Assembly: GCA_950106755.1 (NCBI GenBank)
Contig: OX467087.1
Location: 17,674,047-17,738,046 of the forward strand
Source: Climacium dendroides
Taxonomy: Eukaryota > Streptophyta > Bryopsida > Hypnales > Climaciaceae
Length of the DNA: 64,000 bases
Direction: 5' to 3'
The notes below the pieces were generated by a model that saw only the letters and a program-made list of their open reading frames with translations, did no database searches and had not been told where the DNA came from. Below are positions 6,357 through 63,787 of the stretch, one piece after another. How positions within the stretch are numbered: position 1 is the stretch's first letter; each line of letters starts with the position of its first letter. The position numbers were made by a program, and so were the translations under genes.

Positions 6357-6499
6357 TTGCATTTTCGGTTTTCGGGGGTCCTGTGCTTTCAATACTACAA
6401 GTACTGTGAGTACTACGAAAGGTGCGCAGGATGAAACGTGGGCCGTTGATTTGAATTCCGATCTACGGCTGCAAGTACACGTGGCAGCAATCATTTGAA

Positions 6500-8360
6500 C
6501 GACTGACATGGTAGGTGGAGGTAGTCAGTTTCCCATTATAATGCCGCCGTCGTGGACTTTACTCCCTGTCCCATCTGATTGTGGTGCCAGCGTGGAGGAC
6601 GGTTGAGTTAGGACTCGTGTTGCGCGTGCCATTGAAGCGACCTCACGGAGCGCTACGAAGGTCTCGTTTTTCCACAACTCTATCGGCGATGGCGTGTTGA
6701 CTCTCTTGCATCGTTGAATTGAGCTCCCATTTGTGACTACTGTTGTTGTTGTCGGTTTTAGGATTGGAGAGAAGATTGACTTGGGCGATTTTGGGCGTAG
6801 TTGGAGTTGCCAACTTCAGTGAAGTGTTTGCTTTGTAGTGCATGACAGCGACGTGGGTTCGAAAGGCGTTGATTGTGTGGATGGGAGTGTCTTCCGCTGC
6901 GTGAGCTTCAATTGTGCCATTGATTTGCCTAGAAGAACGTCTCCGCTTTAGAAGAGGTATGTCATGCCTACCCCCCCTATCCTCTTCAATTTGGTTCGAC
7001 ATTGGTTTAGGTGCGTCTTTATGTGCATAGGTATGACGGATGTCCTAGTGCGCCCTTCTTGGCTTGTCACAAGAAAGTACGAGCGAAGTATATGCTAGTG
7101 TCTTAGGTTTTGGGCTGAATTATAGTATGACTGGTCTTGCCTCCTCTCAATTGGATCACGGTGTTCCTTCTTGTTCGCGATTCACTTCACACGCAGTGAT
7201 ATAGTGTTGTTTTGGTAATTGCTTTCACTGAACGGTGCCTTGCGGTGCTATGATTTAGGGTTAACAGTCTGTATGGTAGATGTGAGTTCCTTCTCGTTGT
7301 CCTGAAGTCTTCCACTGACCATTTCTAAATGTCTGCCAAACACTATGGACCTACTGCAGTATGGGGACACTGAAGTTCAACAATCTAATTTCTTGAAAGC
7401 AGTGCACCTAGTTTTCTGCCCAAATGCATGTTACCGTTCTTTTTTAAATGTCTCCCTCTAGCATTGGTTGTTTTCACTATTAGGGACAAAAAAGGAAATT
7501 AAGAAGGACCTCGACTTCATAGGATTGGAATGCCTACTTTACAAAGGACAGCTTACACTTAGCACTTCCGCTGCTTTTGGTGAATAGGTAGAGGAAGCAA
7601 CATCAGTTGAATGATGTGCTGCTGCATTCAGATAGCCTTTCTTATGACTTACATTCTTTTGGCTGATAAGAATGCCATATGTGGAATTACTTGCCCCAAT
7701 GACATTCACATTTCCTGATTTCTTTCCATGGGCACTACACTAGAGTACCCCGTGTACATTACTTTGGTGCTATACTTTTCACACAGCTCCGATTAGTACG
7801 CATAGTACAGGAATAGTGGCTCATAGTACCACTTGTAGGACCTCAACGGAGCGCTAGTACTTCACTGCTTGTATTCTGTTCTACTCTCTCTGTTTCATCG
7901 TCATTTACGTGTTCAATTTCAATGCTCCCTAAGCACAATACGTCTATGTTGTACTCCTTTTATTAAACTTATGCATATTCTACGTGCTTCTGGCTTTCAA
8001 ATATTCATAGTTTCCGTGGTTGGAATTGGTTCCTGTGCAAATTTCTTGGAGCAGCACATCGTCAAAGGAGAACAACACCTACGCAGACTTCTACTGAACG
8101 GGGTGCGTTGTTCTATAAGAATTCTCTTCTTGTCATGGTACCTTGTATTGCTTTGTATATTTTCTTATATCATCCTTGTTTTTTTTTTTTTTCTTTTTGG
8201 TGGATTCCATGGCTCTGGCCTTGTACTACTCCGCTGTTTCTTACACATATGCCACTAGTTTCACCCTATCTTCATAATTTGCACATACAATGTAGACTTC
8301 GGTTTTTAATGTTTTGTTCTTGATGTTCATGGCTTGTTTACTTTGCGTAGGACTCTGCAA
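6500..8360 (+). other. Leader/promoter region of the large element, no clear gene
   Basis: This 1.8-kb stretch precedes the first recognisable coding exon on the plus strand, whose acceptor is near 8350. It probably holds the promoter and a 5' non-coding exon or intron. ORFs on either strand here have no recognisable content. A T-rich tract lies at 8178-8200. Confidence 0.35.
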
Positions 8361-9958
8361 TGGCGAAGATGAAGACTACTCCCGTTGATGACAATGTAAC
8401 TGTTACCTATGAGAAGAAAGGCAAGAGAAAAGCTTTGTCATAAGCACCGGCGCCCAGTCCAGCAAAGGATAAAGCCACTACGGCAAGTGCATCTCCCAAG
8501 GGTGCTAGTAAAGTGAAGGGCAAGGGGAAAGCACTCCCTCGAAAGCAAAAGGCCCGACAGGTTTCTTCCGACTACGAGTCGGACGGCAATGGAGATGAAG
8601 ACTCAGAACATGAGAGTACGGACAAAGAGCACTGGAGCCCACGCTTTAAGCGGAAGAAGGTCGCTTCCCCTGCACCGGTTTACAATGAAGTTGAATGCCG
8701 GCGACAGCTGAATATGTTGAGCCAGCCCTCACAGCGTCCTTCCACCGCCATGTCCGACGACATATTCCACACTTCTTATAAATTGGCGAGGAATGGGCTG
8801 AACCCTCACAGACTGCGCTTGGAGAAGGACGTCCCCAAGACTAACGTGGAGGCTATGTTTGGTGAAAAGAAAGGGCGAAATGGATTCTTCCTTGTGGAGA
8901 AACTGATGCCAACTCTTCGAACAGAAGTAGAGTCTTTATACTACCAAATCTACCAGAGGACACAATGCCCTACCCACATCAGCAAGGAATTGGCTATGGG
9001 TTGGACTTTGCAGACGAAAGAAAAGAGCATTAATTGGATAGGCTTTGCAGCTAAAACGAATTTGAGGCAGTAGCAGTCGTATGCTAGACGTGTGAAGACT
9101 TGGTTGACATGATTGGCTGAAGCGTAGAATAAGACATTCAAAGAGGTTGCCAAAGCAGAGGTCATCTCCAAATACTTAGATGTTGCTGACGAAAAGAAGC
9201 CGCGCATTTGATTGTTCCAGTCCTCTGAGGAGAAGACCGCAACTGTGACCATAGCCGAGCAATGCACTCTGGTAGTACGTAGCACCTTTTTTACAGATGC
9301 ACATCGGGTGGAAAGATGCGTTTCCTTAGTCTTCCACGACTATCCTACAAATACTCTATGCATGTATTAGGAAGTTTGTGTGTGTGGCTCTTTCATTTCT
9401 TCTTCCGCGTATTGCATAGTGCACTACGTTTGAGTACAGCAATACTATGATCGTTGTACATAGCATTCATTTCCAAGTACGTTCAAGCTAGCACATGTAG
9501 AACCTTTATGCTGCTTTCTGGCACTTGCACCACTGCAACGTTGTCAAAAGTGAGCATTTGTGCCTTCATTCAGTACTACCAACTATGACAACAAATTTGA
9601 TGCAAACGCTGTGTAGTCGGTGGACCTCGAGGACTCTGTATGCATAGCTAGAGTACTACTTACTTATCCACCTTACTCGACGAGCACTGCAATCTGTTTA
9701 GTGGTTTAGCGTAATACTTGCATGAGGGCTAACACGTACTGCTAGCAGCGACTCTAATTCTAATAAGTACTTCCACTATCATGAAGTTCTCGATGACGAT
9801 ATTTCACAGTAGGTATACCACTACCATATACTACTTCACTGACATTAGCATAGTGGTACTAGTACTATGCAATGCAATTCTGTTGTCTGCCACCTTCACC
9901 AGTCCTTGTAGGTGCTTAGCTCAATGGCGTAGGAACGTGACGTTGGACTAGTACCAGG

Positions 9959-12315
9959 TGTCGTAGCACAGGAAAGCAAAAATCCTTCTCTAAGGCTCAA
10001 TATTTCTTAAAAGAGGCCTTAAAGTGACTGGAGTATCGTTCCCACGAAGATCGAATTCCTAGGTTCACAATTACCAAAAAATGATAGAGTGATGGTCACG
10101 AAAACATAAAACCCCAAGCAAAACAATAGACTAGAACTTCGACTTGGTCTCCTTGTTTTCTTGGACAAACACGACCGGATCCCTCTGGTCCAACAATTAC
10201 TAATACACATTAGACCGGATCTTCCCGATCTAACAACACTGATCGGATTAAATCCGGTTTAATACCTACTTGTTTATCACACAGACTCTCTAATTGGTTA
10301 GTTTACTATCCCACAGCTTTACACTACCCTATAACTCTCCCAACACTTCTATTCACATACCTTTAGTAGCTACCTGTATTTACATTTTACAAATCGTAAC
10401 TGGGATCCGCGTTTCCACAGATCTAACCTTAACCTCTAGTATTCACATCCGGTCCAGATCTCTACACGTAACCATATCGAGTTTAACCTCTGAACGAAGA
10501 GGGATCTGCTAATTGGGATTTAGAAAGGAAGCTTAACTCCTACCCTCCGATTTTGAAGTGTCAGAAGTTTCACTATGTGATCAAACTTTCAAAAATAAAC
10601 TTTCAAATCCTACAAATGAGAAATAGACCGTCCTCACAACTGGAAAGGAAACGCAGTCGTGTCCAGCAGGTCACGCAAGCCAGTCTAATTCCTCCTAACC
10701 AATGCTACAACGACAGCCTACTGAGTTAGTCCTCAATCCAGTCTGAACTAGTGGAGACAATAAGGAGAAATGAGCACTGCGGAGGCATGCTAACCCTTAC
10801 TCTTTCCGGAGAGTACCTCTCCTCCGTACTCCTTCCGAGTCCATACCCAGTCCACACTAGAGATCCCTTCTGCCTCCATCCACACACACTAATTCAATAC
10901 TGGACCGGATAAACTCAGCATCCGGGTACACCTTGTACCCACTTACACTCACTTTCCAGCTTGAACTTCCAAAACATGGACAAGTGTCAAGTACACACAA
11001 CTATGATTTGTTTCAATCACGCCAAGAGCGAACTCCCAGGTACTCATGAATATAAGAAAATAAGATAAAGATGCACACCGAGACCAAAGAAGTCCCGGAT
11101 TTAAATACTAAACTACTCCCTCAAAATCCTAACCTAAAAGTAACGCTCCAACCAATCAGGGCCAAACACGTTTCATTCCCTTACTATTTTCTAGCCCTGT
11201 TGACTTTCACTCAAATTCCCACTACTTTCGCTAAAAGTGGATTTCAGATCCTATAATTACGGACTTGGTCACTTTCCAACTGCTAGTGGCCGTGTCACTC
11301 AAAAAGTAAACTTCCTGATTATGTACAACTATTCCAAAACTTCAGATTTTCACCACCCTATCCTCAGAAATTTATCCTACGTAACTTCCTAAGTTCTTAA
11401 CTTCTTCGCGGCCGGCTTCTTTCCGGTTCCAGTTTTCTGTCCCTGGCGTACCTTACCCCGAGCGGCAAGCTTCTTTTTCTTGGATGCTGCAGCCTTAGTT
11501 GCCCGAGTCTCTGCTAGTGCTTGATCCGGATCAGAATACGGCTCTGAGTCTTCCTCAGTACCGGATTCTTCATCCCCGTCCTCTTCTTCTTCTTCCTTCT
11601 CGTCATCGTCCTCTAGAATCGTCCTCTTCTTCTGTGTTGACATAATTGGAGGCTTCTTTTTCTGCGTGGTTGGTGTGGGCGGAACATTGGCCCTAACACT
11701 CTGAGGAGTGGTTTCCTCAATCGTTCTACCCTTTCCGGATCCTTACCCCTGTGATCCGGTCTTCCTTTAGTCTGGACTGTAAACTAAAATATGTGAGCCC
11801 GTAACTCTTCCTTCGGCTGACCTATAAAGACACCGTGGATGTTCCTCACAAACTTCTTCCTAAAGCAACTTCCAAGTAAAAGGAGGTCTCAGCCACCTAC
11901 CCCTCCTATTTCTAGGGCTTCATTTACTAGGGACTGTTACAGGTGACCGTTTCCTAAAAAATAGACCTGCTCTCAAGTGTGGTCTAGAACTAGGTAGGCA
12001 CCCGTTATGCCCAGATTGCTTGCCCTCCGTTTTCCGGTCTCCGGTCTTTTATTTTCTTCCGGTTTCCGATTTCTAATAAAATTCACTCTGACCTACTCTT
12101 GACCTAACTATGCCGTTTTCGGGTTTTCGGTTTTCGGTTTTCGGTTACTTTTGTTAACACTATTATCTATTCTAATGTAACCCTATTCCGGTATCCGGTT
12201 CCTAACTACTTACGGTCTATTTTTCTAAAGAAAAACGAAAAAAAATAGGGAGTAAGGAGCTCTATTCCCCTTATTTCCCTTCTAAACCTAAAGACTGGAT
12301 TCCCGTGCTCCCACA
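9959..12315 (-). mobile_element. 2.36-kb TG...CA insertion with 5-bp target duplication
   Basis: CCAGG at 9954-9958 is repeated at 12316-12320. Between them the insert begins TGTCGTAGCAC and ends GTGCTCCCACA, so both ends share an imperfect inverted repeat of about 14 bp with TG/CA termini. The composition changes sharply at both borders, and the TAGTAC words of the host element are missing inside. A minus-strand ORF at 11389-11643 lies inside. TG...CA plus a 5-bp duplication is the signature of integrase-type insertion (LTR elements), but no pair of LTRs was found. It is best called a non-autonomous or decayed retroelement-like insertion. Runs of 'ttttcggttttcgg' lie at 12115-12150. Confidence 0.7.
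11389..11643 (-). CDS. Acidic/basic low-complexity protein of the 2.36-kb insertion
   Basis: This is an 84-residue ORF starting MSTQKKRTILEDDDEK. An acidic run (EKEEEEEDGDEESGTEEDSE) is followed by a Lys/Ala-rich basic tail (KKKKLAARGKVRQGQK) ending KLRT. It may be one exon of a Gag-like or nuclear protein. It is unrecognised and could be a fragment. Confidence 0.35.
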   Translation of the reverse strand: MSTQKKRTILEDDDEKEEEEEDGDEESGTEEDSEPYSDPDQALAETRATKAAASKKKKLAARGKVRQGQKTGTGKKPAAKKLRT

Positions 12316-13689
12316 CCAGGACTAAGTACTACTCTGCTGGCGGCTTTCTTTGACGTGGACAATGTACTCCATGCATTCACCTACACTCGTACACCGTACT
12401 AGAAGGACTAAGAAAGCAGTGTCGTAGCCTTTGAAGATACTACTGTACAAGTTCAATCCCTTCTGTGAGTACTAGGACTTGCTATGCATTGTTTTCTCTC
12501 TAGTTAGTAGTACGACATAGTCCTCCGCTTCAAAACTACAACTACGGTGAGTGACATAGTACTACTAAGTAGTATTACTATGTACTTCTGGGACCTTCTA
12601 TACTAACATGAACCTCCATTTTTTTAGACTTGTTGAGGTGTAGGAGTTGGTGAATTCGTTGAACGAGTCACTCAATAAGTTCGAGGCCAACGCAAAAGAC
12701 CTCCGAACAAAGGCTGACCTTCCAACTGATCAACTTCGTGCGAGTGTCCTCGGAATTCAGCAAAAGCAGGAGATAATAAAAGAGATGGGAGAAGACAGTG
12801 GATCTGCCATTTTCAAGAGGTTACTAGAAGGGCATTCAAAGAAGTCCGCGGAGTTGACCGCAGTAGAGGCTGACTGCAAGACGGCTCTCGACAACGTCAT
12901 TGGAAAGATTTTGGGTACCCAATCACGGCTGACAACTTTAGAAGAGCATTTGCAGGACTTGGGGCGTGGAGGGGATGGAGTGCTGCTCCACCCACATCCA
13001 TTGGTGAATACCACAGAGGCTCTACCCGATATTGTAATGGAAGACATCATGTTACAATAGCCGCTTTGTGCCGCATGCCAGGAGCCTTTTCCTCATGGAG
13101 ATGTCGTGCTTTGCAGTTGCAGGCACATGTATCACCCATGGTGTGCGGCGCAGTGATTTAAAACATCTTCTATGTGCGCTTACTCTCATTGCGGAGTCAT
13201 GGATCCCAAGTGGCTAAGGAGCTGGGGTTTTCCCGTCAGCTTCAATAATATTGAAGTGCGTGGACATGACGTGAATGGCAACTCCATGAAGAATTTCCCT
13301 GCAACTGGAATAGGTGGTCAACAAATTGGGGGGCCTTCAGCACTTGGTACGTGACATATGTTTTCTTCTCAATGGATACTTCAGCAATGACTTTTAGTGC
13401 TTCAGGGTTTACTGTAGCCTATAGGCCATGATGATGTTCTTCACTTGAAGGCCTTGGACTCGAAATTCAGTACTTAGATAGTGAAAGACGTACTTAATCT
13501 GAAGTTTTTGACATTACTGCTTCTCCAAATTGTGATTCATGCATGTTGTGAACACAAACATAATATGCTGCTCTTTGTAAAGGAATGTCGGGGCAACGTC
13601 TTGTCTATGAGTTTTTAGTATTCTTTGTCATGAAGATGTCCTAGTTTGAGGAAGACACTGAGAACAAGTACTGTAGTGTCAATGGGCAG

Positions 13690-16600
13690 GACTATGCTCC
13701 CTTGCAGTTGGTACACCCAGCATGTCAGCCTCAGATAGTACATTCTCCAAAATCGTCTTCATGGAAACGAACTATGCTGGCCACACAGCGGCGCAAGAGC
13801 AGGAGGAGAAATTGCCTGGTACTCCAACTGCAGTCATTCGTAAAGGCGGCGGTAGTTCCAATTCTTTTGATTCCAAGGGCTCCGTCGTCGAAGCTAACGT
13901 GAAGGTCGTCTGCATAGACACTCCACAATCTGTGCCACTAGTGCGTAAAGCAGCGGCCAAAAAAGTGGATGCCGACTCAACTGACAAGAAGAGAGGAACA
14001 CAGCCAGATCCTCGAAGCATCAAAGAACTCGTTTTGGAAAAAAGAGGGACACCACCTACCCCTGTTGCAAATAATGCATCCGTTGTAAAGAAGAAAGTCA
14101 CACTTGTGGAACCTCACACCAATGAAGTAGACGTTGTGGACGACTTCCTACAAAACTACAAAAAGACTACAACACCACTTTCGGACCTTGACAAGGAGCT
14201 CATGGAGTTGGATGCGAAAGGAGCGGCCTTCGATGACATCCTTCCGCAAGCGAGCCCAAGTTCTGCTACGTGCTTTGTACCAGACAAGCCGCCAGAGGTT
14301 CGTCATTGTGCTGGATTCAATGGACATGGAATTCCTAAATTCCTTCATACGCTACATTACTGGTGTCTCCATTTTTCTATTGAGGTGCTTCCAAGTGTGA
14401 GATTTCAAATGTTCTTTGATGCCGTAAATGCTCGACATTATTGCAAACCGAACGTGCAGATTCTCAACCATCTGCTATAGTTGAGGATCTCTGGGATATT
14501 ACGATTCTAGATGCATCAGAGTTGAAGGAAATTTCCAGCGGGAAGGAAGTCCCTGCTGCGCCTGTATGTAGCAATGCAGGGGTGCTCACAAAAGAAGGGA
14601 CTGAGCTAGCAGACTCCACAGCCAGCCCAGTGAAATGTAGCAGAAGACGACCCGCGTGTGGTGTGTAATAGTACCCATTGTCCGTTGCAGTAGAAGTGTT
14701 CCTCTTTCTAGTATTACAATATGTCCTTGTTTGTCTTACAAGTACTATTTGTGATTCCGCTTAGTACATAGTGTACGCATGAATAGTACTTTAGTCCTCA
14801 ACAGTACGCGACGATGATGGCATTAGTCCTAATCTTTGTACGCTTCACGAATGAAAAATGAAGTCCACATAAGGATGCACGACGGTCTCTTACTTCATAT
14901 GTAACTAATGAATGCATATTGCTCTTCAATGTTTTGTATGATTGTATTAAGTAGAGGAGGCAAGTCTGTGTCAACCAAGACACAGAATCCTCTAGAGCCT
15001 ACCACAAGATAGTTACGTTCGAAGACGCCTATAGTAGTGCCTACGTCATCAGGAAGTCCTCCATTGGCAAGTGCTGCTGGAGCGTGTAGTCCGGATGAGG
15101 TGGGTAACTAGTGAACTTGTTGCGCATGCATCTTCAACTGAGTTCCTACCACATGGACAAGATGTGTAGGGGGAAACCCTTCCCCACTTTTGACAAATGT
15201 ACTTCTACAGAAGTGCTCATTTTTTGGATAGGATTGACTTGTGCTGCCTGTAGTAAATGCCCGCACAAGCCTAGTGCCAGCAATACAGGGGCTGACCACA
15301 AATGTTGAAGAGGGGTGTTGCAATGCCCCGTGGTATGAAGTTTTGAAATTTTCTGTATTTCAGCTCTTTACAATATGCAATATACTATTTATTGGGCCTA
15401 CATGTCTCTTGTATAATATGTTGCTATCCACAGGGGTGCACGGTGAACATTTGTACATGACTTGTCAGGAGGATTGGAAGCACCTCCTATTCTATTTCAC
15501 GATGCTAATGCACACAGTTGCAAGTTACCCATTCATAGTAGTTGCATTTACACAAGCAAACATATTTTGCATGAGTCAATGAATGTAGGTGCTTTAGCAT
15601 TAGCATGCTCTGTTCACATTTGTCCTTTTTTAGCTTCTGAGAGAAAATGCAGTGATATTGAAGGCACTGTCTACTCCAAAGCCATTATAGGGTCAGCTTA
15701 TATTGGAAACGATGCTTTGAGCGACCGATTTTTGGCAGAGGTAAGTAGAATACCACACTATGTACTCTTAGTGCACTTACGCATTTGCCTTATCCACAGC
15801 ACTTCAGAGTTTAGGTGACCAAGGAAGTGCATGTTTGTTTGCAAAACCACATTTGGTTTCTAACGTGGCCAAATGACGTGCATGGAGTGCATTTGCCATG
15901 GCAGTTCAGACAGTCGAGATCACTACGAAACGGAGGGCTCGTTTGCTGTGCAGAGCTTCCCTCTTGTCCAGAATATGAGCAAGACAAATGTGGCGGCCAT
16001 GTTCCCAGACTGTACATCCGGGAGTGCTACAGTGAGTGTGCTTGTAAGCCTCCTTGTCGTAATCGGATTGTGCAAGGAGGCGTGCAAAAGCAACTGGAGG
16101 TCGGTGTAGTTCCGGCAGCCGCGGCTTTTCCTCATATTTTAGCTTTGGATTCATTGCATGAAGCGATTTGTCTCCTGCCGTATTCTTCTCTGAATTAGTT
16201 GACGTGGATGTTGCAATTTCCAGATATTGACAGCTTTGCAAACATTGCAGGTGTTCCATGCAAGCAATACAAAAGGTTGGGGCATTCGAACGTTGGAGAG
16301 ACTTCACCGGGGATGCTTCGTATTTGAATACGGTGGGAAAATTGTAACCAATGCTGAGTTGTTGAGGTGGGGAATAGGGCAGAAGTTTACTTTTGCTTTG
16401 GATGCACATTGGCAGTCGGAGGTCTTTGAAGGAGATGACTCACTACTTTGAATTGACGCATCCAAATATATGAATGTCGCGCGCTGGTTGAACTATAGGT
16501 GATGTCCTCACTCTTTCTACAGTTCTGTAAAAGTTAGCTTTCCATACTTTGAAAATGCCGAGTACATGCCTTGATGAGACGGTTTTAGAATTGATGTCTA

Positions 16601-17003
16601 TGTAAGGGCAGATACGGGGATGCAAATTTGCTGGACATCCCAGTTTTGATTGAACACGATGTTCCGACTTTATACCATGTAAGTAAGCCAAAAGCGTCCT
16701 TGGGAGGAAGAAATAGACATGGGGAGTGAATGACGGCCTCAACCGCATATTGTATGAAGAGGAAGGAAGACGTAGACATGGGGAGTGAATGACGGCTTCA
16801 ACCGCATATTGCATGAAGAGGAAGTGTTTCTCATTACTATTGAGGTCTCGCAGGTGGCTTTCTTTACAAATCGGGAAGTGCAGGTGGGAGAGGAACTCAC
16901 ATGGGATTATGGATGCATGTTTTATACTGAAAATGGTATGAGGATGCCATTTCCATGCTCCTGTGGCAAGAGGCACTGTAGAGTGGAAAGTGAACAACGT
17001 TGA
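13690..17003 (+). pseudogene. SUVR1/2/4-like SET-domain histone methyltransferase, degenerate
   Basis: SUVR proteins methylate histone H3, mainly K9, in plant nuclei. The N-terminal part (about 13722-14650) is low complexity with 'VDVVDDFLQNYKK' and 'EDLWDITILDASELKEI'. Pre-SET text starts near 15873 ('MTCMECICHG') and changes frame near 15945 to 'DKCGGHVPRLYIRECYSECA', then 'CRNRIVQGGVQKQLEV'. SET follows at about 16249-16497: 'TKGWGIRTLERLHRGCFVFE' (cofactor loop) and 'SKYMNVARWLNY'. A stop at 16449 separates these, and a donor lies after NY at 16498. The last block, about 16785-17003, has 'VAFFTNREVQVGEELTWDYG' and the post-SET CSCGKRHCR. Order and wording match plant SUVR1/2/4 rather than SUVH or ASHH. 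The NHxC catalytic motif reads NY and is split at the intron. A 59-bp tandem duplication disturbs the block before 16785. It is probably captured from a host gene. Confidence 0.75.
16715..16825 (+). repeat. 59-bp tandem duplication in the SET gene
   Basis: The unit starting 'agacatggggagtgaatgac' at 16715 repeats at 16774. Each copy includes the codons for NDGFNRILHEEE or a variant. A partial third start ('gaggaagaaatagacat') lies just upstream. The unit length is not a multiple of three, so it disrupts the exon if both copies are retained. Confidence 0.8.
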
Positions 17004-17770
17004 TTGCACACATTGAGACTGACTATACATAGCATTCAAGTACATTGTGAAGTGTCAGACATGTACTATAGCTCGTTAATTTTGTAATAGTACTCAGTAG
17101 ATGTACTATCCATAGTACTTTTAGGACTCCTGTGTAGTGCACACTATACTATGACAATACATATGACTACTACGTCAGTACCATTTTAATGTATTAAATG
17201 TATTAAATGTAATACATCTAGGACATTACCATACTACACATTGCTATACTGTAAATTTAATATTTCCTTACAAATACAAGTCAGTACTTCAGAATTTGCG
17301 AGTGTCAGTCTTAGTGAGAGGAACATAGGTTTACTTCCTGTAAATATGTAGAGGTCATCACAGAAGAAGGGCTACGAGTAGGTAGTCTACATGTGAGTGT
17401 GCCAGATATTTCTGTGGACCTACCACTAAGATTTGAGGAAGATATTGCGTTCCCTATGTAGAGAGGACAATACCTCGACGAGAAAGTGTGTTTGCCAATG
17501 TAGTTGGCAAGGAAGAAGACAAGAGAAAGAGAACATTGCTCTCATATAAGGTACTGTGTTGGACCTCATGCCACTTTTGGTAACTCACAAATTCATTTCT
17601 TTCAATGCAGTGTTGATAACGTCTACTGTTTCCTCTAGCATGTTATATACAACTTCTCCACTTTTCACTTTGTATTGTCTAAGGATCATTTGAAACTTGC
17701 AGGCAAGTACAGAATTAGCATAAAAAAAAGCCTCCCTTGAATTACAGAGGAAAAAATAGTTGTTGCTATC
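17004..17770. other. Spacer between convergent SET and transposase-like genes
   Basis: TAGTAC/AGTACT-rich DNA lies between the 3' ends of the two convergent genes. No ORF has recognisable content. A repeated 'tgtattaaatg' occurs near 17190-17210. Confidence 0.45.
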
Positions 17771-20502: not shown

Positions 20503-20509
20503 CGTTACG

Positions 20510-20705
20510 CTGTGACATCACCGTTATTTTTGACGTCACTACGTTTTTAGACAAACGCGCAGATCAGGGACAATTTTTTATGATGTCATCTGAAACGTCA
20601 TAATAGACGTCAGGAAATATAGGGATGTCACTTTGAACGGACGTGTTTTTCACTATGTCCAAAAAAATAAAGGACGTTTCAGATGACGTCCAAAAAAATA
20701 CGAAT
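20510..20705. repeat. CACTA-1 left subterminal GACGT repeats
   Basis: Many short copies of TGACGTC, GACGT and ACGTC occur in both orientations. In En/Spm elements such subterminal words bind the TNPA/TNP1-type protein. The palindromic TGACGTC core appears near 20537 and 20684. Confidence 0.65.
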
Positions 20706-21129
20706 CGGCCACGTCAACCACTAGTGCATCTTTCACTGCGGGCAGGTGCACTGCTGTCACTGAGAGGGCAGGGGGGGTGTTGCCCTACAGGGAAAACACC
20801 TGATCAGTATAGGAAAGAGCTTCAGGCTGTAAAATTCAGGCTTTCTGGGAGGATGTGAAGTCATGGGTACAAGGTAGGATGAAAGTGACATAGACACATG
20901 TAATGACTCAACAAATGTGTTTTGTTGTTACAAGTCTAGGGTATGCCAAAATAAAAAGGATGTACAGAATTAAATATTTTAGGTCCTAAAACATGAAATA
21001 TGGGAAATAAAAATGGAGACTCATTGGGATAACCTTATCATAGAGGTGAAATTACGCAATATTATTTGGAGATGGGTTTTGAGAACAGAAAATGGGGATT
21101 ACTTGGGAGTGTTGGGATCAATGTGACAT

Positions 21130-21645
21130 TATTCCATTGGCTTTGAAATTGTAAATTAGGCCCCATAAAATGGAGAGTGACTTGCAGTCCCCATAGTGAA
21201 TTCCTTCCAATATTTTTTGGATTTACGGAGTTGGGATAAAATTAAATGGGGAGAATATAGGGGTGTCCAGTTCAAATTCATTCCATTGGGATGGGGCTTC
21301 GGGGTCCCCCCCAATATGGGGGTGAATGTTAGTACGGGGAGTGCGAAGAAGTGCTTTCCATTGGAGGTTCATGGATGGCCCAAACAATTTGAGAGTAATT
21401 TGAAGTCCCCACAGTGAATTCTTCCCAGTGCTTTTTGGATTTAGAGAGTTGGGAAAAAATTTAAATGGGGAGAACATGGGGGGGTTATGGCCAAGTTCAT
21501 TCCATTGGGTTGGGGCTCGGGGGTTCACTCCAAAAAATTGGGGTGAATGGTCGTGTAGGGAGTGCCAGGAAGTGCTTTCCCACCTGGGTTTAGGGATGGC
21601 CCAAACAATTTGGGAGTGACTTGCAGTCTCCATAGGGTGAAAGCA
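21130..21645. repeat. Tandem repeat, about 220-bp unit, 2.3 copies
   Basis: The unit from about 21197 to 21418 recurs at 21418-21640, with shared text such as 'ggcccaaacaattt' and 'aaatggggagaa'. A partial copy (ends 'gtccccatagtg') precedes at 21130-21197. ORFs crossing it are by-products of the repeat. Confidence 0.8.
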
Positions 21646-22385
21646 CATTACGCCCCCCTACAAAGTACATCAGAAAAGTACTTTTTGAGGATGTATTTAT
21701 ATAACGTACTTTTTTTTAGATAAAATAAACATTATTTTCACTTTTCAATTGATCCAATTGGTAGGTACTTATGTAGAGAAGGTATTCTACCACATTCTAA
21801 TCCAATTTAGTGTTTCATCCATCCTCTACAAAGTACTTTACCAACAATAAAAGCATGTTAGGTTTGTAAAATAATTACAAATGACTTTGTACAGGCCAAA
21901 TGAATGATCAAAAAAGCACAATAGTTTGTACAAAGATAGAATATATATACTATGCAAGGGCTTCTTGGTCATAGTAGAACTATAATTACAATATCTATTG
22001 GAATGTGGAAGTCAGATGGGCATTATCTTTTGCGGAGGAAAAAAGACACAAAAAATAATATTTACGTTCATTTTTTGATGAGTAAAGCACTACATTCACA
22101 TACTGTAGCATGGCTACTGCTTAAATCTCCAAAATTTTGAATATTTGTTTGACTTTTTCCCTTGCTTCTATTCGTGAAGAATTACTTATGGTTTAGGGTA
22201 GTTTTAAACTTTCAACTTCATCTCCATGAGCTCCTTTATAATCCCGAAAGTCATTCAAAAATTAGCTAAACTCGTTCCTACCTATCAATAGAATAATAGG
22301 AACTATTTTCAATAGAAAAAGTAGTGATTTTCAGTGTCCCTTTATCACAAGGACAAAACTTCTTATAGTATAGATGTTTGTTTAA

Positions 22386-22912
22386 CCCCTAAATGCCCAA
22401 GGCCTTTTTTGAGCTTTGAGGAATTTGTTCTAAATTGAACAAAAAGACATTTTGATAAGTTGTATCATTTTTTTTGGAATTATAATTGTACAAATTCAAA
22501 CTAAACAATTTAGAGATCACATAGGAAAAGAAAACACAACAATATTACTTATGGATTGAAAGATTATAATGTTTCATCATAAGGATGCTAAAATTGTAAA
22601 AGAAATTTGAAGTCTTTCAATCCTCTTTTCACATGCCAAATCTAAAAAGTTGGTCACCAAAAAAATATGAGGATAAGGGCCTAACATGCAAAATCCTAAC
22701 CAATTTATGGCTTCTCAAAATCTACTCTTGTCTATTGTGCAATAGACAGCCTTGTACAAAATCTTGAATAGAAAAATCATAATCGTTCATTTTCAAAATT
22801 GAATTTTTAATGCTAATACTAGACTTCAAAAAAAAATTCAAAAATATAAAATACTAAAAATAGAAACTTAGTTAGGTTTTATTTAACTTCAAAGTATTGT
22901 TCGACATCAAAT
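22386..22912 (+). mobile_element. TTAA-type MITE copy 1, right end missing
   Basis: Begins with the terminal text CCCCTAAATGCCCAAGG just after TTAA and matches the complete copy at 31716-32365 in reverse orientation. Homology ends near 22912 without the second terminal repeat. It is nested inside CACTA-1. Confidence 0.7.
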
Positions 22913-23167
22913 TTATGCTCGTAGGGTCCTCAATTGATCTGATACCTGGGTGATATCCATCTCTATTCCATTTGACAAGCTCAATAAAATTAGGGTTTTA
23001 ATTGCATTGCAGCCAGCGGATTTGTCGCTCTTCTCAATTTCGCGCATTCTCTTGCTCTCATGCCATTGTAATCTGTCAAATTGCAGCTTAGCTTTGCTAC
23101 TTGTTCAATTTCTTGGAAGAAAGAAAAAAAGAAGATGGCAGTTCCGATTCACCCCGAGGATCCTGCA

Positions 23168-23377
23168 CCAGATCAACCCCGGACTCCGCCCTCAGTCGGC
23201 GATTTGCTCCAAGCAAGCCAGATTTGTCGACACTGCACCAAATCAACCCTGGACTCCGCCCCTAGTCGGCGATTTGGTTCAGGCAAGCCAGATTTGTCGA
23301 CATTGTACCAGATCAACTCCGGACTCCGCCTCCAGTCGGCGATTTGCTCCAGGCAAGCCAGATTTGTCGACACTGAA
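23168..23377 (+). repeat. Three tandem 70-bp units
   Basis: Three head-to-tail copies, each with 'ggactccgcc', 'agtcggcgattt' and 'gccagatttgtcgacattg' or a close variant. They sit in gene-like DNA inside CACTA-1, perhaps a captured 5' leader. The ORFs here are repeat by-products. Confidence 0.85.
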
Positions 23378-24139
23378 TTGTTATTTTCTTAGTGTAAATG
23401 TGTGATTGAGGTTCCTTTTGAGAATTTATTCATATTCTTCTTTGTTTTCTTATATTACTCTCTGAATGTACTTTACATTATTGTTATCAACTATGGAGTT
23501 GTGATTACGTTTTAATTCGCAAAATCTGATTTTTCAGATGTGAATCTTTCAATTTTCGTTTTCTCACCTGAGAATCGGTATTCTCCGAGGTTCATTACGT
23601 TGGATTTACCCTATCTCACAAGTTCTTAGTTCTCATCGGATATTGAGATAAACTTTCAATGCAGGGACAAATTAGGGTTTGGGTTTCTAGTTTGAGAATC
23701 ACAATGTGCAGTCTAACCAAGTGCTCAAGAATATAAGATCAATATTTCACTGTTGGTTGTTATGAATGACCGAATTAAGTGATTTGCTCCAGACGAGATT
23801 CACGTTCAATTGCAGTCTTTATAATGCTGCTGATTGAGTTTGGATGTTCAAATGAGCTGCTTCCACAGAATTTTCATGAGCGTTTGTATAGTACTATATG
23901 AATCTCCTTTACATTTTCCATTGACTATGGAGTTTGTGGTTAGGTTTTACTTCACAATCCACTCAAAAGTTGTGAATCTGGAAATGATCATTTCTCACAT
24001 GAGAATCAGTATCCTCCTTATTCCGGTCGTGCCGATATCTAGGTCTAAACATTCTGTTGGATTTACAAGATATTTGTTTGTTTTAGATTTGGGTAAATCT
24101 CCATTACATTCTCGAGGAGTTACCTGAACACCCTTGGAA

Positions 24140-27100
24140 AGTACTTCAGATCGGGACAACAATCTTCCACCGAAGAGGAAGAGGACCCCTCAAGTGCTGT
24201 TGGAGTTGTCGGAGGAGGCAGGGCACGACGCAGAGGAAGAGGAGGAACTCAAAGAGCAGTCTTGGAGGTAAGTTTGGAAGAAGAAATAATTTGAGTATAG
24301 AACCAGTGGTATTCAAGGTTTTGGGGGAGGCGCGCGTTGGTACGGACGTCAAGTGCAACGCACACCCTGTTTCTTATGACGTCGACTCTATCATGTTAAA
24401 CGTCATAGACGTTTAATGTGATGTCTGCATAAATTGTCTGACGTTCATGTCTTCGTCACGGAGGACATGTTCTTTGAGTTGAACTCTATACAAAGAAAAG
24501 TGATTGTTTGTTCCTTAGTCAGAGAGAAATTTGTAAGAATTCAGAAGTGATCAATCAGGACGTACGGGAATCAACCCCCTGTAAGGGTGACAGACCCTAA
24601 ACCACGGCGTCTTTCCAGTTTCTGTGAAGAGAAAGTTCCTGTAATGTTCAAAACAACGTCTAGGCGTGTCTACATCGACGTTAGATTCAACGTAGTGAGC
24701 AACAGAGGAACATGTAGAGTACTTTGAAGCCGCAAATAGCGTATGTGGACATCTCTTTTGTAGGGGTCCAGTTGCGGGAGTGATTTGATTGTACTGACGT
24801 AGCCCCATTTTCTTCCGAAGCTGATAGTGCATTTGACCTTTTACAGTAAGGGCTACAACACAGGGTTTGATGAACCAGCTTCGAATGCTGATATTGAAGA
24901 GATGATCGAGCAGCTGATCCCCGAACAGGCTCGCGAAAAAGGCTTAAGCACTGTAATGAAGAAACCTATGTAAATAGACCGACAGGGGGAACCATTCGGA
25001 CCTATAAAGGTTCCTTTCTCCAACGACATCAAGAAATATGCAAGAGACCTTGACCCCAGGTTTGGATGGGAGGGTCAGCCTAAGAAAGACAGACGGCGCT
25101 TATTTAGGCGCCTATATACAGGTTTGTATTCAGTCCTTCTTTGTGAAATGAAGAGGACTATAGACCTTGTAGTTCATTGTTGCATGTAGTTCAGAAGACT
25201 GTTAATGTTGTAGAAGGTAGCTCATTGGCCATGAGGCGGGGTAGTGGATGTCACCTGTAATGTCCACAGCGACGTCGAATATAATGTCACGACTGATATC
25301 AGTGCAGGATCCTCTACAGTGAGGGGTGGTCCCTATGGTTGTCCGCACCACAGGGACGTGCAGTGTGTATCCCCTAGTGTTTTCTAGAGACATAGGGGTG
25401 TCCATGTAAATTCTCTTGTTATTCTTTGGTACATCAATGTTGTACACAATGCAGAGGTAGCTATACTAAGTCCTCTGGCTTGCAGATTAGTGTATAGAGG
25501 GAGAGTCCGAGCGAGTGTTGGAGAAGTGGATGCAGCCGTTCATCACAAAAGCGCTCATTCATGTTCGTTGGAAGCTCAATCGATTGATTGATGGCAGAAA
25601 ATCCAAACCGATTGGAATGGATGACGATGTGTGGGAGGCATTGAAGGAGGCTCGTGCTACCGATGCTTCCCAAGAGAAGTCAGCCCATATGTCTGCCATT
25701 TCTAAGGGGAAGGCATCCAGCACAACCCAGCATGAGGCCGTAGAGAGAGAAGTCATCTCGAGGCTGGTAAGTATGTAGTAACTGACGTCCACCTACTTGC
25801 CCATGTCGACACCACTTTCATCACACATGTTGCGTTTGTTATTCCAAAAAATGTCAAAAATGATGGTAGATATGGAGGACTGGGCCTTCTTCTTCGCACG
25901 TGGAAGGACCTTTGTGGGGTGGCATTGAAGCATGTAATCATTGCATCTGAACTCTAAGTGCATATTTTTCTTCCCCTTGTCGGGTGGCATTCAAGCATGT
26001 AATCGTTGCATGTGGACTCTAAGTGCATATTCTTCTTCCCCTTGTACGGTGCCATTGAAGCATGTAACCTTTGTATGTGAACTCTAAGTGCATATTCTTC
26101 TTCCCCTTGTAGACTTTGTTGCGGAACAGAGCACCGTTTGAAGCAAAGGTGGACGCAGAAGTGGCCAAGGAGTTGCAGCGTCTGGAAGAAGAGAAGCGCA
26201 GAGGTCGAAGTCCCCATGGCAAAGAGCTGCAAGAGATGCGCAGTCGGCTGGATGAGCTTGAGCTCAATGTAAGTCGCCTTACTGAGACCATGAGCATGTC
26301 CCACAAAAGCATGGAGGAAATGCTACGTAAGATCCTCGCAAGTTAGTGTAAAGCAAGTGGTGGGGGGACCTTGGATGTCACGGAGCCATCCTCGCCAATC
26401 GGGGCAAGGAATCCACCACTTCTCACGTCACCTAGGGCAGAGGCGTTGAAAATGGCACAGAAGGACTGTCTTGTGCCCGTGTTGCAGCCCACAACTCCTG
26501 TAGATGTCGTTGAGCCAGTCCCCATAGCTGGCCAAAGCAATGTCAAAGACGATGTTCTTGTTGACGTTAACTCCGACAAGCGGGCTGTTGAAGACGATGT
26601 TGTTTACGACGTTGTAGCTAACATTGAGGAGGAGCAGGTAGAAGTCGTCGGTGAAGTTGCGATCCCTGAAACTGCTAAAAGTCAGCAAGGAGTGGAAGAT
26701 GTGTACGCCATAGTCAAAGACTCCGGGGTGCAAGCAACATCTGAGAGGAGAGAAAGCACAATGGAGACCTCCACGGAGCAACAGGTGATGCGACGTCTCT
26801 CTTCCCATTTTAAGTGCCAAGTGACCGACGTGAAGCACTCCCTTTGTTAGGCTAGTGACGTTATTTCCATGAATTGCCTTGTATGAGGATGGTGTCGTAG
26901 CGTAGTAGCGTTTGTTTGCAATGCTTCAATTTTTTTTTAGAAGTGCGTGTCAAATTGGACATCGAAGTGAATGTTACTAGTGGCAGACGCTGATGCACTC
27001 TAAGGCTCAGCCTGTTCTTTTCAAAGCGAGTACATCAGAATAGTATGTAAGCAGAAGTCGAAGTTTCCTTTCAGTCCCCCATTCCATTGAATGCGCAGGT

Positions 27101-27590
27101 ATATTTTACAATAACTATGTGCATCTTACAGGAAAGCAAGTGCCTCAATGGTGCTCAGGTAAGGCTAGAAAGTGTAGGTGATTAGAGGATGTCAAAAGTG
27201 AATAATAATTGTGTGATGGTGTTGCAGGAAGACATTGAAGTCCTTGGTGAGTCCTCAAGCCAGCCTCGGCGTGTTGTGAGGACCACGCAAGCTGTGAAGG
27301 GCACAAAGGCTACACCGAAGGCAACAATTTCCAAAGCGGTGGGTCTTCCTAAACCTACCCAACCCACTAAAAAGGTTAGGAAGGCTGCATTCCATTCACC
27401 CATACTTTCAGTTGTTTCTGTATGCAACTTAAAAGAATAATGCAAGTGTAGCATTCCTTGACATTTGTTGTGGCTGTATAAGAGTCCCAGAAATAAACAT
27501 ACACGAGTAGGTACTGCTGGTTTTGACTTGGTGTGGTACGATGTAGGTTGCTGTTGTCAAGAAATCGGATGCACCTCGGAAGAAGTGAGT
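24140..27590 (+). pseudogene. TNP1/Transposase_24-like protein gene of CACTA-1
   Basis: Plus-strand exon-like blocks are: about 24150-24269 ('PPKRKRTPQVLLELSEEAG', donor GGTAAG); 24845-25121 ('YNTGFDEPASNADIEEMIEQ', with a TAA near 24973); about 25495-25767 ('LEKWMQPFITKALIHVRWKL', then 'DVWEALKEARATDASQEKSA' and 'KGKASSTTQHEAVE'); 26113-26346 (coiled coil 'EMRSRLDELELNVSRLTE'); about 26371-26785 (acidic); and 27228-27440 ('KAVGLPKPTQPTKKVRKA'), with a basic KKSDAPRK near 27565. The layout of a Trp-rich block with Lys/Ser linker, coiled coil and basic tail is that of the DNA-binding accessory protein in plant CACTA elements. A stop in the second block and a TAG after the coiled coil suggest decay or more introns. 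Confidence 0.55.
25921..26112 (+). repeat. Tandem triplication of an intron 3' splice region (65-bp unit)
   Basis: Three copies start at 25921, 25986 and 26051. Each has 'actctaagtgcatat' and 'cttccccttgt'. Only the third ends in the functional TAG acceptor before the coiled-coil exon at 26113. The other two read TCG and TAC at the same place. Confidence 0.85.
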
Positions 27591-28084
27591 CCCTGTTTGC
27601 CACAGTGTGTCCAACTTCACATCGCATATCATGGTCAAGCATGTTATTCAGAACATTGAGTAGAACGCACCATGTTTTCATCGAAAGTGTTGTAGTTAAT
27701 GTTGTTGTGGATTTCTTCGTAATACTAGATTGTGGGCATGTGCATAGCTATTTTGTGCAAAAGTTGGCAAGTAGCCTTATAATCCCAATGCCATTGAAAA
27801 CACAGGCTTCTATGCTTGGACATCTCTTACAAAGACACATAATTCATCTTCTAATGGCATATCTCAATCTTCCATTCACTCATGTATATGGGCTGTAGAG
27901 TACATCGTCTTTGATGTTGAGGTTTACGATTCACGTTGTTCATTTCGTTCGAAAAAACATCCTTCCTCTCGCATTGTATGTCTTCTGTAATGCTCAAGAA
28001 AACACTGCAGATGTCACTGTGCGTGTCGAACGGAACATTGAGCACAAAGCAATGCATACCCCAGTACATGGATTGCTCTACTTA

Positions 28085-28585
28085 ATGTCACAATAGACGT
28101 GTATGTGGACGATGTCTGCGATTTCAGCAAAGAATAAATTCCACAATATTGTCCACCCAGCTCATTTCCTAAAGCACATTCTCGTTGACTCTGATGTCAT
28201 TTAAAACATCCTCCTGTCAAATGTGACGTCCCAGAGAACATCACACAGAACACCGGCATGTACCGCAGAAGAGTGCCACGTCAGGTGCCACGTAGGCTGC
28301 GTGCACCGGAAATTATTTTCCACGTCGGATATTTAGGGGTCCACGTCATTGGACACGTCAGAACGCCGTTGGATGAAAAAGTTGTCCAACGTGTCCTTGC
28401 CCATCGTTAAAAATCCTACGTGGATGCCAAAACCCCTCCACATGGCACTCTCAGAAACTCTTGGGTGACCCTGTTGTTTTCAATGTCATAAAAAATTTAA
28501 GCACGTTTTAGCACATAACATGGCCCGTTTTTGGCCCGTTTTTTTAAACGGATTTTTTTAGACGTCACTACAGGCATCGTCCTTG
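28085..28585. repeat. CACTA-1 right subterminal GACGT repeats
   Basis: The same GACGT/CACGTC words are dense here, e.g. near 28095, 28225, 28275-28290, 28320-28365 and 28560. They mirror the left end. Confidence 0.6.
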
Positions 28586-28618
28586 TTAAATTAAACATCA
28601 CAGCACGTTTTTTCCCTT

Positions 28619-28647
28619 GTTAAAAAAAACACTGATTTCTTATAGTG
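28619..28647 (-). repeat. CACTA-1 right terminal inverted repeat
   Basis: Ends GATTTCTTATAGTG; its reverse complement starts CACTATAAGAAATC. It is flanked by ATA. Confidence 0.88.
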
Positions 28648-28650
28648 ATA

Positions 28651-29720
28651 GACTCAGTGCTATAGACAATGTAACTATACTCTACTGAATTCGTATCATA
28701 CAAGGCATTGCTCTCTCAGTGCTCACTAGTATGAAGTCAGTACTGTGAAGTTCTATATTGGTCAAGATAGAACATAGTGGACTACAAGGAAGTTGTAGGG
28801 GACTTAAGCCCATGAGCGCTAGTGACACGCTAGTAATTTCAAAATGAGTCCAAGGTATGATCTTAGTGGAGCAGAGGACTGTACAGGAGGATCTGACAGA
28901 AGTAGGAGCTCGAAGTATTGCATAAGTATCCATGTAGTATTCATTGCTACTACATAGGTCTCATGTTTGCGTCAGGAAGCACTAGCAACGAATACATAGT
29001 ACAATGTGTGAAGCAATAGTGCTCTACCTGTCGGAAGAGAGGATTCTAAATATGTCATCTCGAAAGCGAAGACATACCACAAGTGCAGGGAGGGCCTAGT
29101 AGACGTCCTATTGAGTATTATGGAGGCATATCCGTAAGCGTGGACGATGGGGCAGCAGAGGCCTTATCCATATCCATGTATTGCGCTATATAGATCACTG
29201 CAATGTAGGCACTTCACTACAATGTAAAATACACTTTGAATGTGTGAAGAATGTGGATGTACTACAGCAATACCCAAAGTCCTACAATGTGTCCGAGAAG
29301 GACTAATAGAATGCAATGCATTGTTTTTGGAAATCCTTGTATATAATATGGATCAAATTAGGACTCTTCTAGACATGCAAGAAGTCACTTCTAGTATTAT
29401 CATGACATAAGCACCAGTCATGTGACGCAACAAATATTCTTTCTCAGGAAAGACAATACAAAACCGCTCTATTTTGCAAAGAAAAGACATCATGCACTTG
29501 CTAACAATGAACACGAATGGGCTCTGTTGACTAACAATGTTAGCTGTACATGTTCCTATTCTATTTACTATGTTGTATGAAGTGAAGACCTATAGTGCAG
29601 AGGAATCCTCAAAGCGTGCATGACTTTCCCAAAGAACCCTTTTCCTCAAGCAATCAAGGTTTGAACAAATAAAGATTCTACAATAAAAATCGAAGCCATG
29701 ATTGGAAATTAGGGAGGCCG
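28651..29720. other. Intron of the transposase-like gene right of CACTA-1
   Basis: TAGTAC/AGTAC-rich non-coding DNA of the large element resumes right after the ATA duplication. No recognisable exon was seen, though small ones could be missed. Confidence 0.4.
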
Positions 29721-29723
29721 TAC

Positions 29724-30272
29724 CTGATTCTCCATTAGAAGATGCATTGCATAAGTGTCGTATGCATTCCGACCGAGGCATTTGCGTCGCACATCCCATC
29801 TCCCGGGACTTACTCGCGTCTCCTGTGTCCACCACTACAAGACCAGTTGCTTGACCTCATTGCAGATTCCACCTTCCCTTGTCTTTCGAGCTAGAGCTGC
29901 AAAACGTGATGAAGTTTCTGTTGTAGCTGATCGTAGTCGCTCTACAGCAGCTAGCAAATTCTCCTTTCTTGTACCGAGTATGCTATGGAACTTTGAGATG
30001 TCGGAATCTAATTCGCTCACCACTGCCTCCAAGATCACCCTCTTGCGAGCTAGCATACCCGAAGAATGAGGAATTTTCATGGCCACCAAGTCCGACTTAA
30101 TATTTAGCAGAATCTGTCGTTGGGCCTTCGCTTCTTCAGGAGTAGGGTAATTACTAGGGAGGAGCAGTCGAATGCTACAACTACTAAAAACCTTCTCCAA
30201 AACAGCATCTCTGAAATTGGAATCCCCAATATGTTGTAGCAATCGGAAAAGGGAATTTATGATGTGACTCAT
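29724..30272 (-). pseudogene. Transposase-like gene of the large element, N-terminal exon
   Basis: The exon starts MSHIINSLFRLLQHIG and runs through 'YPTPEEAKAQRQILLNIKSD', 'ARKRVILEAVVSELDSDI' and 'SSRFAALARKTREGGICNEV'. A TAG stop at 29835-29837 interrupts it. The same frame then continues WWTQETRVSPGRWDV and 'LGRNAYDTYAMHLLMENQ' to a strong donor (CAG/GTACGG) at 29723. The TRVSPN-like block followed by a CxC-YH block (found at 19.93 kb) is the order expected in this family. This exon and the block at 17.77-19.95 kb are therefore read as one gene, now split by the CACTA element. Intermediate exons were not found. Confidence 0.5.
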
Positions 30273-31385
30273 ACTCCTCCAAACACTAGTCCGGTGCCTT
30301 CTGCATCCCCATCGTAGATTTGGCGCAGAATTGGCTTCTACACCTGCTGCGAGTGCGTCCTCGGCAATGCTGCGTTGGCTGCAACTACGCCGCTGACGAT
30401 CCCTCCATTCTTGTCGTTGAATGAGTACCGCAGTAGCCTCTGCCCACCGTCACGTTCATGACCCCGGCCGCGTCATCCACTCATCTGGCGGAACACTTCA
30501 AAGGCGACATCCGCAGTAGCCCCCAATGATAAAATTAGTTCTCATCACTCCTGCCCCTATCTCTTCCATGCATGAAGATGCAACATTGGATTTCTGTGTA
30601 CTGGCTTCCAAACCCAACATCGTAGTTCTACTGCTCATTCCGTGCACTAACTGTCACTGTTCTTCTTCGGAACTCTGAAACAAGAGAAGCTGGCGGCGTT
30701 CATCGTTCCCGATGCATAGACGCCACATAAAGCAATTTTAAAGTCTCCATAAAAGCAAACCGCAGGGGCGGATGAAGACGTAGTTGGACAAGCAGTCCAT
30801 GGTGGCAATGGCGTGGGCCCCCCCTAGGACTATGCAGTACTATTTGTCTACGTTGGAATACTACAGGGAGCCAGAACTTCAGAATATTGCTAGAAAATGG
30901 CAGTTTTTTATTTCTATTTTTTATAATTATAGGAGGCCCTTAAAAAATTAATATAAAAAATGGCCATTTTTTCCAACCCCCTAAAATCACTGGAAGTGCA
31001 AAAACCAATTTATAATATTAATTTCCATGAGTGGAAATTACCTACAAATGTAGCTCTATTCTGGCCAATGTAGAAGCCCATGAAATGAGGCAATCACAAA
31101 TCCCTCTCCTAGAAAGTTGTATTTCCATAACTAGAAGGAGCCCACAAAGTCTGACATCCTAACTCTTTAGAAAAGGTACTCAAAAGTACTAAAATCCCCT
31201 AAAACTATTTATGTGACATTTGCTTAAAATTCAAAAAGCCATCTGAAATCATTTTTGAAAATTTTCTAAAAATTCCAGTACATTAGTTGATGATGGAAGA
31301 GCACTCACGCCAAATTTCAAATTGATCCCATTATTTCTCCAATACTTATGGCATCAAACAACTTCTGCACGCAACGTGTGACGGA

Positions 31386-58558: not shown

Positions 58559-63787
<5,229 letters not shown>

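Follow-up and report, generated by a model that had tools for sequence, protein, structure and literature searches.

SET-type histone methyltransferase genes have been described in DNA transposons of the oomycete genus Phytophthora, in which HarbingerS and MuDR elements carry such a gene beside the transposase gene (Kojima and Jurka, Repbase Reports 2014, as cited in the passages on these elements in PMC12730594). A similar arrangement is present in the moss Climacium dendroides. The window analyzed here is a stretch of 64,000 nucleotides of contig OX467087.1 (assembly GCA_950106755.1; C35:17674047-17738046), and it contains a copy of a DNA transposon with a SUVR-type SET gene, a coiled-coil/RING gene, and a transposase gene. 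According to those passages, the Phytophthora elements are found in another host kingdom and are named under other transposase superfamilies; in contrast to these descriptions, the moss element has a 4-bp target site duplication, GGGTGA ends, a SET gene of the SUVR type, a RING gene, and TAGTACT motifs in its non-coding DNA. Relatives of Harbinger are described with duplications of 0, 2, or 3 bp (PMC12730594, section concerned), compared to 4 bp here.

An epigenetic enzyme as a regular extra gene across diverged transposon families is also found in fungi, where TET/JBP genes occur in KDZ, hAT7, IS3EU, PHISTA, EnSpm, ESTA, Plavaka, and Helitron elements (PMC12730594, passages on these groups). 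However, TET/JBP proteins are DNA dioxygenases and not histone methyltransferases, and the duplications given in these passages are 2, 3, 6, 7, or 8 bp long, not 4 bp. Like the moss element, VANDAL elements of Arabidopsis encode an extra protein and have accumulated a short motif in their non-coding DNA; their VANC proteins bind this motif and bring about a loss of DNA methylation (PMC5735166, part on VANC). The VANDAL motif is YAGTATTAY (or AGTTGTMC), is present in tandem repeats, and its binding has been demonstrated (same part of PMC5735166), whereas the moss element encodes a SET enzyme plus a RING protein, and its TAGTACT motif is dispersed and has a putative recognition only. The SET domain itself is similar to those of flowering-plant SUVR4 and relatives, with 46% identity to SUVR4 of Linum, but the moss gene is transposon-borne, and the part of it that was searched yielded no WIYLD domain. 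SETMAR of primates also unites a SET domain with a transposase, but it is a fusion of SET and mariner in a single host gene, whereas the moss elements form a mobile family that has a SET gene of its own. In the original prediction, no named plant element was known to have this gene set. This fits the open-licence literature (Repbase aside), in which no plant transposon with a SET gene was found in print, but has to be seen beside the SET transposons of oomycetes, for which that literature yielded only PMC12730594, in the passages mentioned, and one stramenopile review. No mention of cc8L18.2 was found in the same open-licence literature. What goes beyond another capture is the transposase family, which matches no Pfam family, the set of three genes, and the motif; SET transposons as such are already on record in oomycetes.

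The genes at 6326-31415 belong to one cut-and-paste-type DNA transposon with GGGTGA...TCACCC ends, which has the following features:

6322..6325: left target site duplication, AGTT
6326..31415, plus strand: DNA transposon, decayed copy of family 1, 25,090 bp, ends and target site duplication set by comparison with seven other complete copies
6326..6355, plus strand: left terminal inverted repeat, GGGTGATTGCAAGAAACACTTGTACTATTT, 30 bp
8351..9099, plus strand: coiled-coil/RING gene, first part with basic N-terminus and conserved helical region, 44% identical to family 2
12578..13056, plus strand: coiled-coil/RING gene, coiled-coil part
13067..13231, plus strand: core of the RING finger, interrupted by one stop in the window
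13803..14390, plus strand: N-terminal exon region of the SET gene, without known domain
15635..15740, plus strand: SET gene, start of the pre-SET region, frame and donor site read by eye
15824..16099, plus strand: pre-SET exon of the SET gene, with an uncertain 5' border
16251..16498, plus strand: SET domain exon 1, ends with N-Y-R (N-H-R in most other copies)
16612..16678, plus strand: SET domain exon 2 with YGDANL (the other copies start with Cys)
16854..17003, plus strand: SET/post-SET exon, ELTWDYG and CSCGxxHC
17585..18293, minus strand: transposase gene, C-terminal exon
18605..18823, minus strand: transposase exon with GKGEWDG (third Asp)
19048..20042, minus strand: catalytic exon of the transposase, with its first Asp intact and Asn instead of the second
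29712..30497, minus strand: transposase gene, N-terminal exon region
31386..31415, minus strand: terminal inverted repeat of the right end, with CAACC at its tip in place of CACCC as the only mismatch
31416..31419: right target site duplication, AGTT

The genome (412.6 Mb, 123 contigs) was searched with the SET region 13690-17003, which is present at 17 loci if the window is counted; one locus is a 186-bp fragment only. A lone host gene can therefore be rejected. Apart from the window itself these loci are 86-92% identical to the window, and two more weak matches have 68-69% identity. Many of the same places are also matched by the left part of the element (6325-9700; 40 of 278 candidates scored). 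Ten copies of this family (family 1) were taken as 20-kb stretches for a comparison of the ends. Both ends are present in eight copies, the window copy included, and seven of these are flanked by 4-bp duplications (AGTT, ATGT, TATT, AAGT, CACG, ATAT, and CCTA), while copy c34a has the flanks CATA/ATAG and no matching duplication. One of the other three copies has no left end, and two have no right end inside the stretch. The SUVR-type SET gene and the DDE/D transposase gene are found in all eight complete copies and the RING core in seven, as it has been removed by a deletion in copy c1b; the window copy and c37a are colinear across the gene set. Inverted-repeat ends, a DDE/D transposase, and a target site duplication of fixed length at different sites are the hallmarks of cut-and-paste (class II, terminal inverted repeat) transposons. 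The length of 4 bp applies to 7/8 family-1 copies, to one copy each of two further families described below, and to 5/6 short relatives. The original prediction, that the SET, RING, and transposase-like genes form one element, is thus borne out by repeats and duplications that enclose them in seven of eight complete copies, and its extent of 6357-30860 was nearly right, the true ends lying slightly outside at 6326 and 31415.

The arrangement is not restricted to family 1. Searches of the genome revealed 42 SET loci (16 of family 1 and, from a search with SET protein, 26 others) and 126 transposase matches, which were merged by hand into 114 loci. A transposase lies within 30 kb of 15/16 family-1 SET loci and 15/26 other SET loci, and in all 30 pairs it is situated downstream of, and convergent with, the SET gene. 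By chance this would be expected for each of the 26 loci with a frequency of 0.0164 (binomial P about 1e-20), although distances among the 26 reach 27 kb, so that far pairs are less sure, and host SET genes may be included. Other loci with the proposed gene order thus exist, and the two findings that would have spoken against it, a transposase never beside the SET gene or a SET gene of the host alone, were not encountered. The remaining 12 SET loci lack a transposase match within 30 kb.

A representative of family 2 at C3:45.26 Mb has a length of 15,991 bp, the duplication ACTA, and a perfect 20-bp inverted repeat (GGGTGAGTGCAAGAAAGACT), which is identical to family 1 at 18/20 positions. Its gene order is the same, and the identity to family 1 is 44% in the coiled-coil region, 56% in the RING core, 59% over 171 codons of SET, and about 59% for the transposase (44% in the N-terminal part, 53-60% elsewhere). 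Its transposase has four stops in the compared codons and two in the N-terminal part, while the compared SET codons have none. Locus L030 (C37:8.13 Mb), adjoined by a transposase, is 96-97% identical to this copy over about 1 kb. Family 3 at C1:10.69 Mb has a length of 16,452 bp, the duplication TGTA, and an imperfect inverted repeat of 22 bases (86%) that starts with GGGTGAAAGTA, so that GGGTGA ends and 4-bp duplications are common to all three families. It has the same gene order (coiled-coil, 30% identical to a homolog; RING, 40%; SET; transposase, 43%), its transposase (43-46% identical) is encoded in three long frames (329, 421, and 217 codons), the second and third of which are separated by one stop, and the SET exons matched by the query have no stop. 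SET, RING, and transposase genes shared by three such diverged families show that the gene set is old.

The SUVR-like pre-SET/SET/post-SET gene predicted within 13690-17003 was located exon by exon, and a spliced family copy matched the Pfam SET family (E 6.2e-13) as well as structure chains of EHMT2, SUV39H2, and SETMAR. The best protein matches are two Linum proteins (46%), one of them named SUVR4. In the window copy the SET motif NHxC has become NYRY, so that the catalytic motif is lost, while 10/10 other copies retain N, H, and C (with an altered x position in two), and two of these ten (c1b and L002) lack one post-SET cysteine. An unrooted SET tree has three clusters, families 1 and 2 with P0049 (support 100/98), L031, L032, and P0048 (83/85), and flowering-plant SUVRs (98/97). 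A transposase adjoins L031 (C3:43.5 Mb, 27 kb away) and L032 (C1:10.69 Mb, 4.4 kb away), and therefore labeling these two as host SET genes is wrong or doubtful, and the tree is no proof that all transposon SET genes share one capture. P0049 and P0053-P0057, mostly of metagenome sources, are related to the SET and RING genes, which probably exist in other, unsampled organisms.

The transposase-like gene was predicted on the minus strand and was found there in four parts (30497-29712, 20042-19048, 18823-18605, and 18293-17585). A second look at the structure matches identified it as a DDE/D transposase with an RNase H-like fold, while Foldseek alone gave nothing convincing (best E 2.8e-4, TM 0.11). 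A Pfam scan of nine homologs found no transposase family, and Pfam presumably contains a KDZ transposase model; a scan of the raw open reading frames of the window gave weak matches only, and among viral contigs no relatives were found. The nearest named matches are from Klebsormidium, Ceratodon, and Cryptomeria. The Klebsormidium nitens homolog P0004 is predicted to be fused to leucine-rich repeats, which may be an annotation fusion. The transposase tree joins families 1 and 2 as sister groups (100/100) and places family 3 with proteins from metagenomes (100/100). The Sola superfamily has 4-bp target site duplications and was hence considered. The duplications of KDZ (Kyakuja-Dileera-Zisupton) elements are 7 or 8 bp long, and EnSpm/CACTA elements have 5'-CAC..GTG-3' ends and 3-bp duplications (PMC12730594, passages on these groups), which differs from GGGTGA..TCACCC and 4 bp here.

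The predicted coiled-coil/RING gene on the plus strand comprises 8351-9099, 12578-13056, and the RING core at 13067-13231. Its peptide, with the single RING-core stop of the window read through, matches Pfam zf-RING_2 with E 2.3e-5 and 25.0 bits, below the curated 27.3.

The window copy is dead. Stops are present in all three genes, as predicted, namely one in four SET exons, four in three scored transposase exons, and two in the RING gene (one in the RING core and one in the coiled-coil part). Family 1 as sampled looks dead or nearly so, with SET-exon stops in 9/12 scored copies, a one-base gap in two of the three stop-free ones, and transposase stops in 10/10. Among SET-exon singletons 77/121 are C-to-T or G-to-A, an excess that resembles methylated DNA. 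Synonymous and nonsynonymous changes common to at least three family-1 copies number 12:11 for SET and 16:14 for the transposase (one of them a stop), compared to 40:81 and 97:171 for singletons (one-sided Fisher P 0.067, 0.052, and pooled 0.011). Versus a neutral expectation of 27.5% synonymous changes, the shared SET changes have P 0.011, and the singletons do not depart (P 0.19). By itself this is modest evidence of selection. Between the family-1 majority and family 2, however, pS and pN are 0.749 and 0.264 for SET and 0.775 and 0.251 for the transposase (636 codons). Synonymous sites are saturated and protein change is not, and therefore this codon comparison shows that the SET gene has been under long purifying selection inside these elements, about as strong as that on the transposase. 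It seems that a jumping gene has long used its own chromatin-modifying enzyme.

The genes had been described as embedded in TAGTAC-rich non-coding DNA. This was confirmed, with 44 TAGTAC in the 13,883 bp of the window element's own DNA versus 6.3 expected (maximum 14 in 100 simulations), and 14 in the other 38.9 kb of the window. TAGTAC/GTACTA is the top over-represented 6-mer in the ranked family-1 copy and the sixth in family 2. Three family-1 copies contain 53, 54, and 53 (about 6 expected), family 2 contains 38 (7-8 expected), and family 3 contains 19 (4.6 expected); AGTACT is found 32, 30, and 25 times (the last in family 3) versus 4-5 expected. With coding-like stretches delimited by hand, only 1/54 motif copies of family 1 lies in coding-like DNA, which makes up 40% of the element, and only 1/38 in family 2 (28%). 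One motif copy sits within the family-1 inverted repeat. The motif is still kept in non-coding DNA of families 1 and 2 at a divergence that has saturated synonymous sites, which points to a function.

A possible function is that the RING and SET proteins form a chromatin module owned by the element. The transposase or the coiled-coil/RING protein would recognize TAGTACT scattered in the non-coding DNA and would bring the SUVR enzyme to the element copies, where it might then methylate H3K9. H3K9me3 instead of H3K9me2, which feeds the plant DNA-methylation loop, could keep the copies expressible. In vitro SUVR4 converts H3K9me1 to me2 or me3 and binds ubiquitin (PMC7218100, in passages that differ on which product needs ubiquitin), which makes a RING gene beside a SUVR gene suggestive. 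The zinc fingers of SUVR5 bind TACTAGTA (PMC7218100, part on SUVR5), and H3K9me3 has been called permissive in Arabidopsis (title of PMC13017857). We regard an element-addressed chromatin module as likely, if its direction, escape or brake, is left open, in which case it overlaps with the brake discussed below; keeping copies expressible appears slightly more likely than silencing them. The window copy can neither shield nor silence any more. Only tentatively do we propose the complete form, a sequence-addressed chromatin-writing kit of a previously undescribed plant transposon lineage, in which TAGTACT would be the address, a protein the reader, the RING protein a possible ubiquitin ligase, and the SUVR methyltransferase, of a class that ubiquitin can steer, the setter of the histone state of every copy, selected across very diverged families.

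Several findings weigh against such a module. H3K9 as the substrate is taken from the enzyme family only. No Pfam WIYLD match was obtained in the family-1 N-terminal exon or a 59-residue family-2 piece, the parts covered by the scan, as the complete SET N-terminus was not assembled. No motif-reading domain was found, and the model of the N-terminal half of the RING gene was unusable (pLDDT 42). In family 3, 3/25 AGTACT lie in coding-like DNA (29%; P 0.04), a weak avoidance of genes. The sampled copies of all three families have a stop in the transposase, 11/26 SET loci outside family 1 have no nearby transposase match, and about 84/114 transposase loci have no SET match within 30 kb, although a SET gene too diverged for the query would escape detection there. 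Related transposases therefore manage without the enzyme, and many of these loci are 39-43% identical, several with open frames of 500-650 codons. Finally, SUVR enzymes are known above all from silencing, a role that would favor self-limitation over escape.

Self-limitation would mean that the SET enzyme acts as a brake, placing silencing H3K9me2/3 on the element's own copies or on competing elements and thereby reducing damage to the host. In Arabidopsis, H3K9 methylation and silencing have been linked to SUVR2, SUVR4, and SUVR5 (review PMC7218100; abstract of a SUVR2 study), and the C-to-T/G-to-A excess is as expected of methylated, silent DNA. However, silencing by the host would suffice for this decay, and a brake is, as an argument and not from data, harder to maintain than escape by selection on single elements; we hold it to be possible but doubtful. 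The enzyme might instead act on the transposition reaction or on target choice, for example by marking or reading the chromatin of insertion sites. SETMAR, in which SET domain and transposase are one protein and the SET domain of which is among the structure matches, fits such a role, but no SET-transposase fusion exists here and many related transposases have no nearby SET match, which makes it unlikely.

Plant transposons often capture gene fragments, and the SET gene might thus be a passenger, caught once and carried neutrally. The stops in 10/10 family-1 transposases and 9/12 scored SET exons and the weak SET selection signal within family 1 are what a passenger would leave. A passenger is nevertheless very improbable, because families 1 and 2 combine saturated synonymous sites with a nonsynonymous divergence of 26%, similar to that of the transposase, and because three families have retained SET, 30 loci show the same arrangement, and the catalytic motif is kept. 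Segmental duplication of a host gene cluster could account for large colinear copies and for c34a. Sharp inverted-repeat ends, 4-bp duplications at different sites in seven of eight copies plus two further families, the transposase fold, and short relatives with the same ends leave it practically no room. Transposons and hosts contest chromatin, and because these transposons own a histone methyltransferase of host type that has long been under selection, self-marking becomes directly testable, including whether self-written histone marks silence or shield mobile DNA. Natural controls within one genome are provided by the motif, by the RING gene, and by transposases that have or lack a SET neighbor, with the SET-less loci as comparison group. 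If the complete kit is true, it would amount to a mobile system of epigenetic self-programming. It also follows that SUVR-like genes annotated in such genomes may be transposon genes (30/42 SET loci here).

The complete copies apart from that of the window are 12.3-14.8 kb long, and the underlying length of the element is about 14 kb. The window copy is inflated mainly by two nested insertions foreign to the element:

9959..12315: solo-LTR-like (long terminal repeat) insertion, target site duplication CCAGG
20475..28647: CACTA-like insertion with CACTATAAGAAA ends, target site duplication ATA

The CACTA-like insertion has gene-like frames around 24.1-27.6 kb, and the two frames scanned (22938-23405 and 26347-26850) match no Pfam family. 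A third candidate, 685 bp at 7336-8020, is absent from c37a, yet it is present in the copy at C35:16.83 Mb and is therefore not counted as an insertion. Six short elements of 733-735 bp, about 96-98% identical to one another, have 30-bp ends exactly as family 1 and 4-bp duplications in five cases, two of which share a flank and represent one insertion; they resemble non-autonomous relatives that are mobilized by this transposase. C36:41756-46185 and C35:25970334-25974763 have identical scores and spacing versus the left part of the element and are either a recent duplication or an assembly duplicate.

Further repeats are present in the window. Positions 1-5071 and 58909-64000 are direct repeats with a length of about 5.1 kb and 96.5% identity that run off both edges, and thus a longer repeat is present on either side of the transposon. 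An AT-rich repeat family is found at 22381-22917, 31711-32370, and 52679-53036, the first two mutually inverted and one inside the CACTA-like insertion, and short-unit arrays with GCAACTA/TAGTTGC cores are located at 45350-45861, 47605-47904, and 50174-50979.

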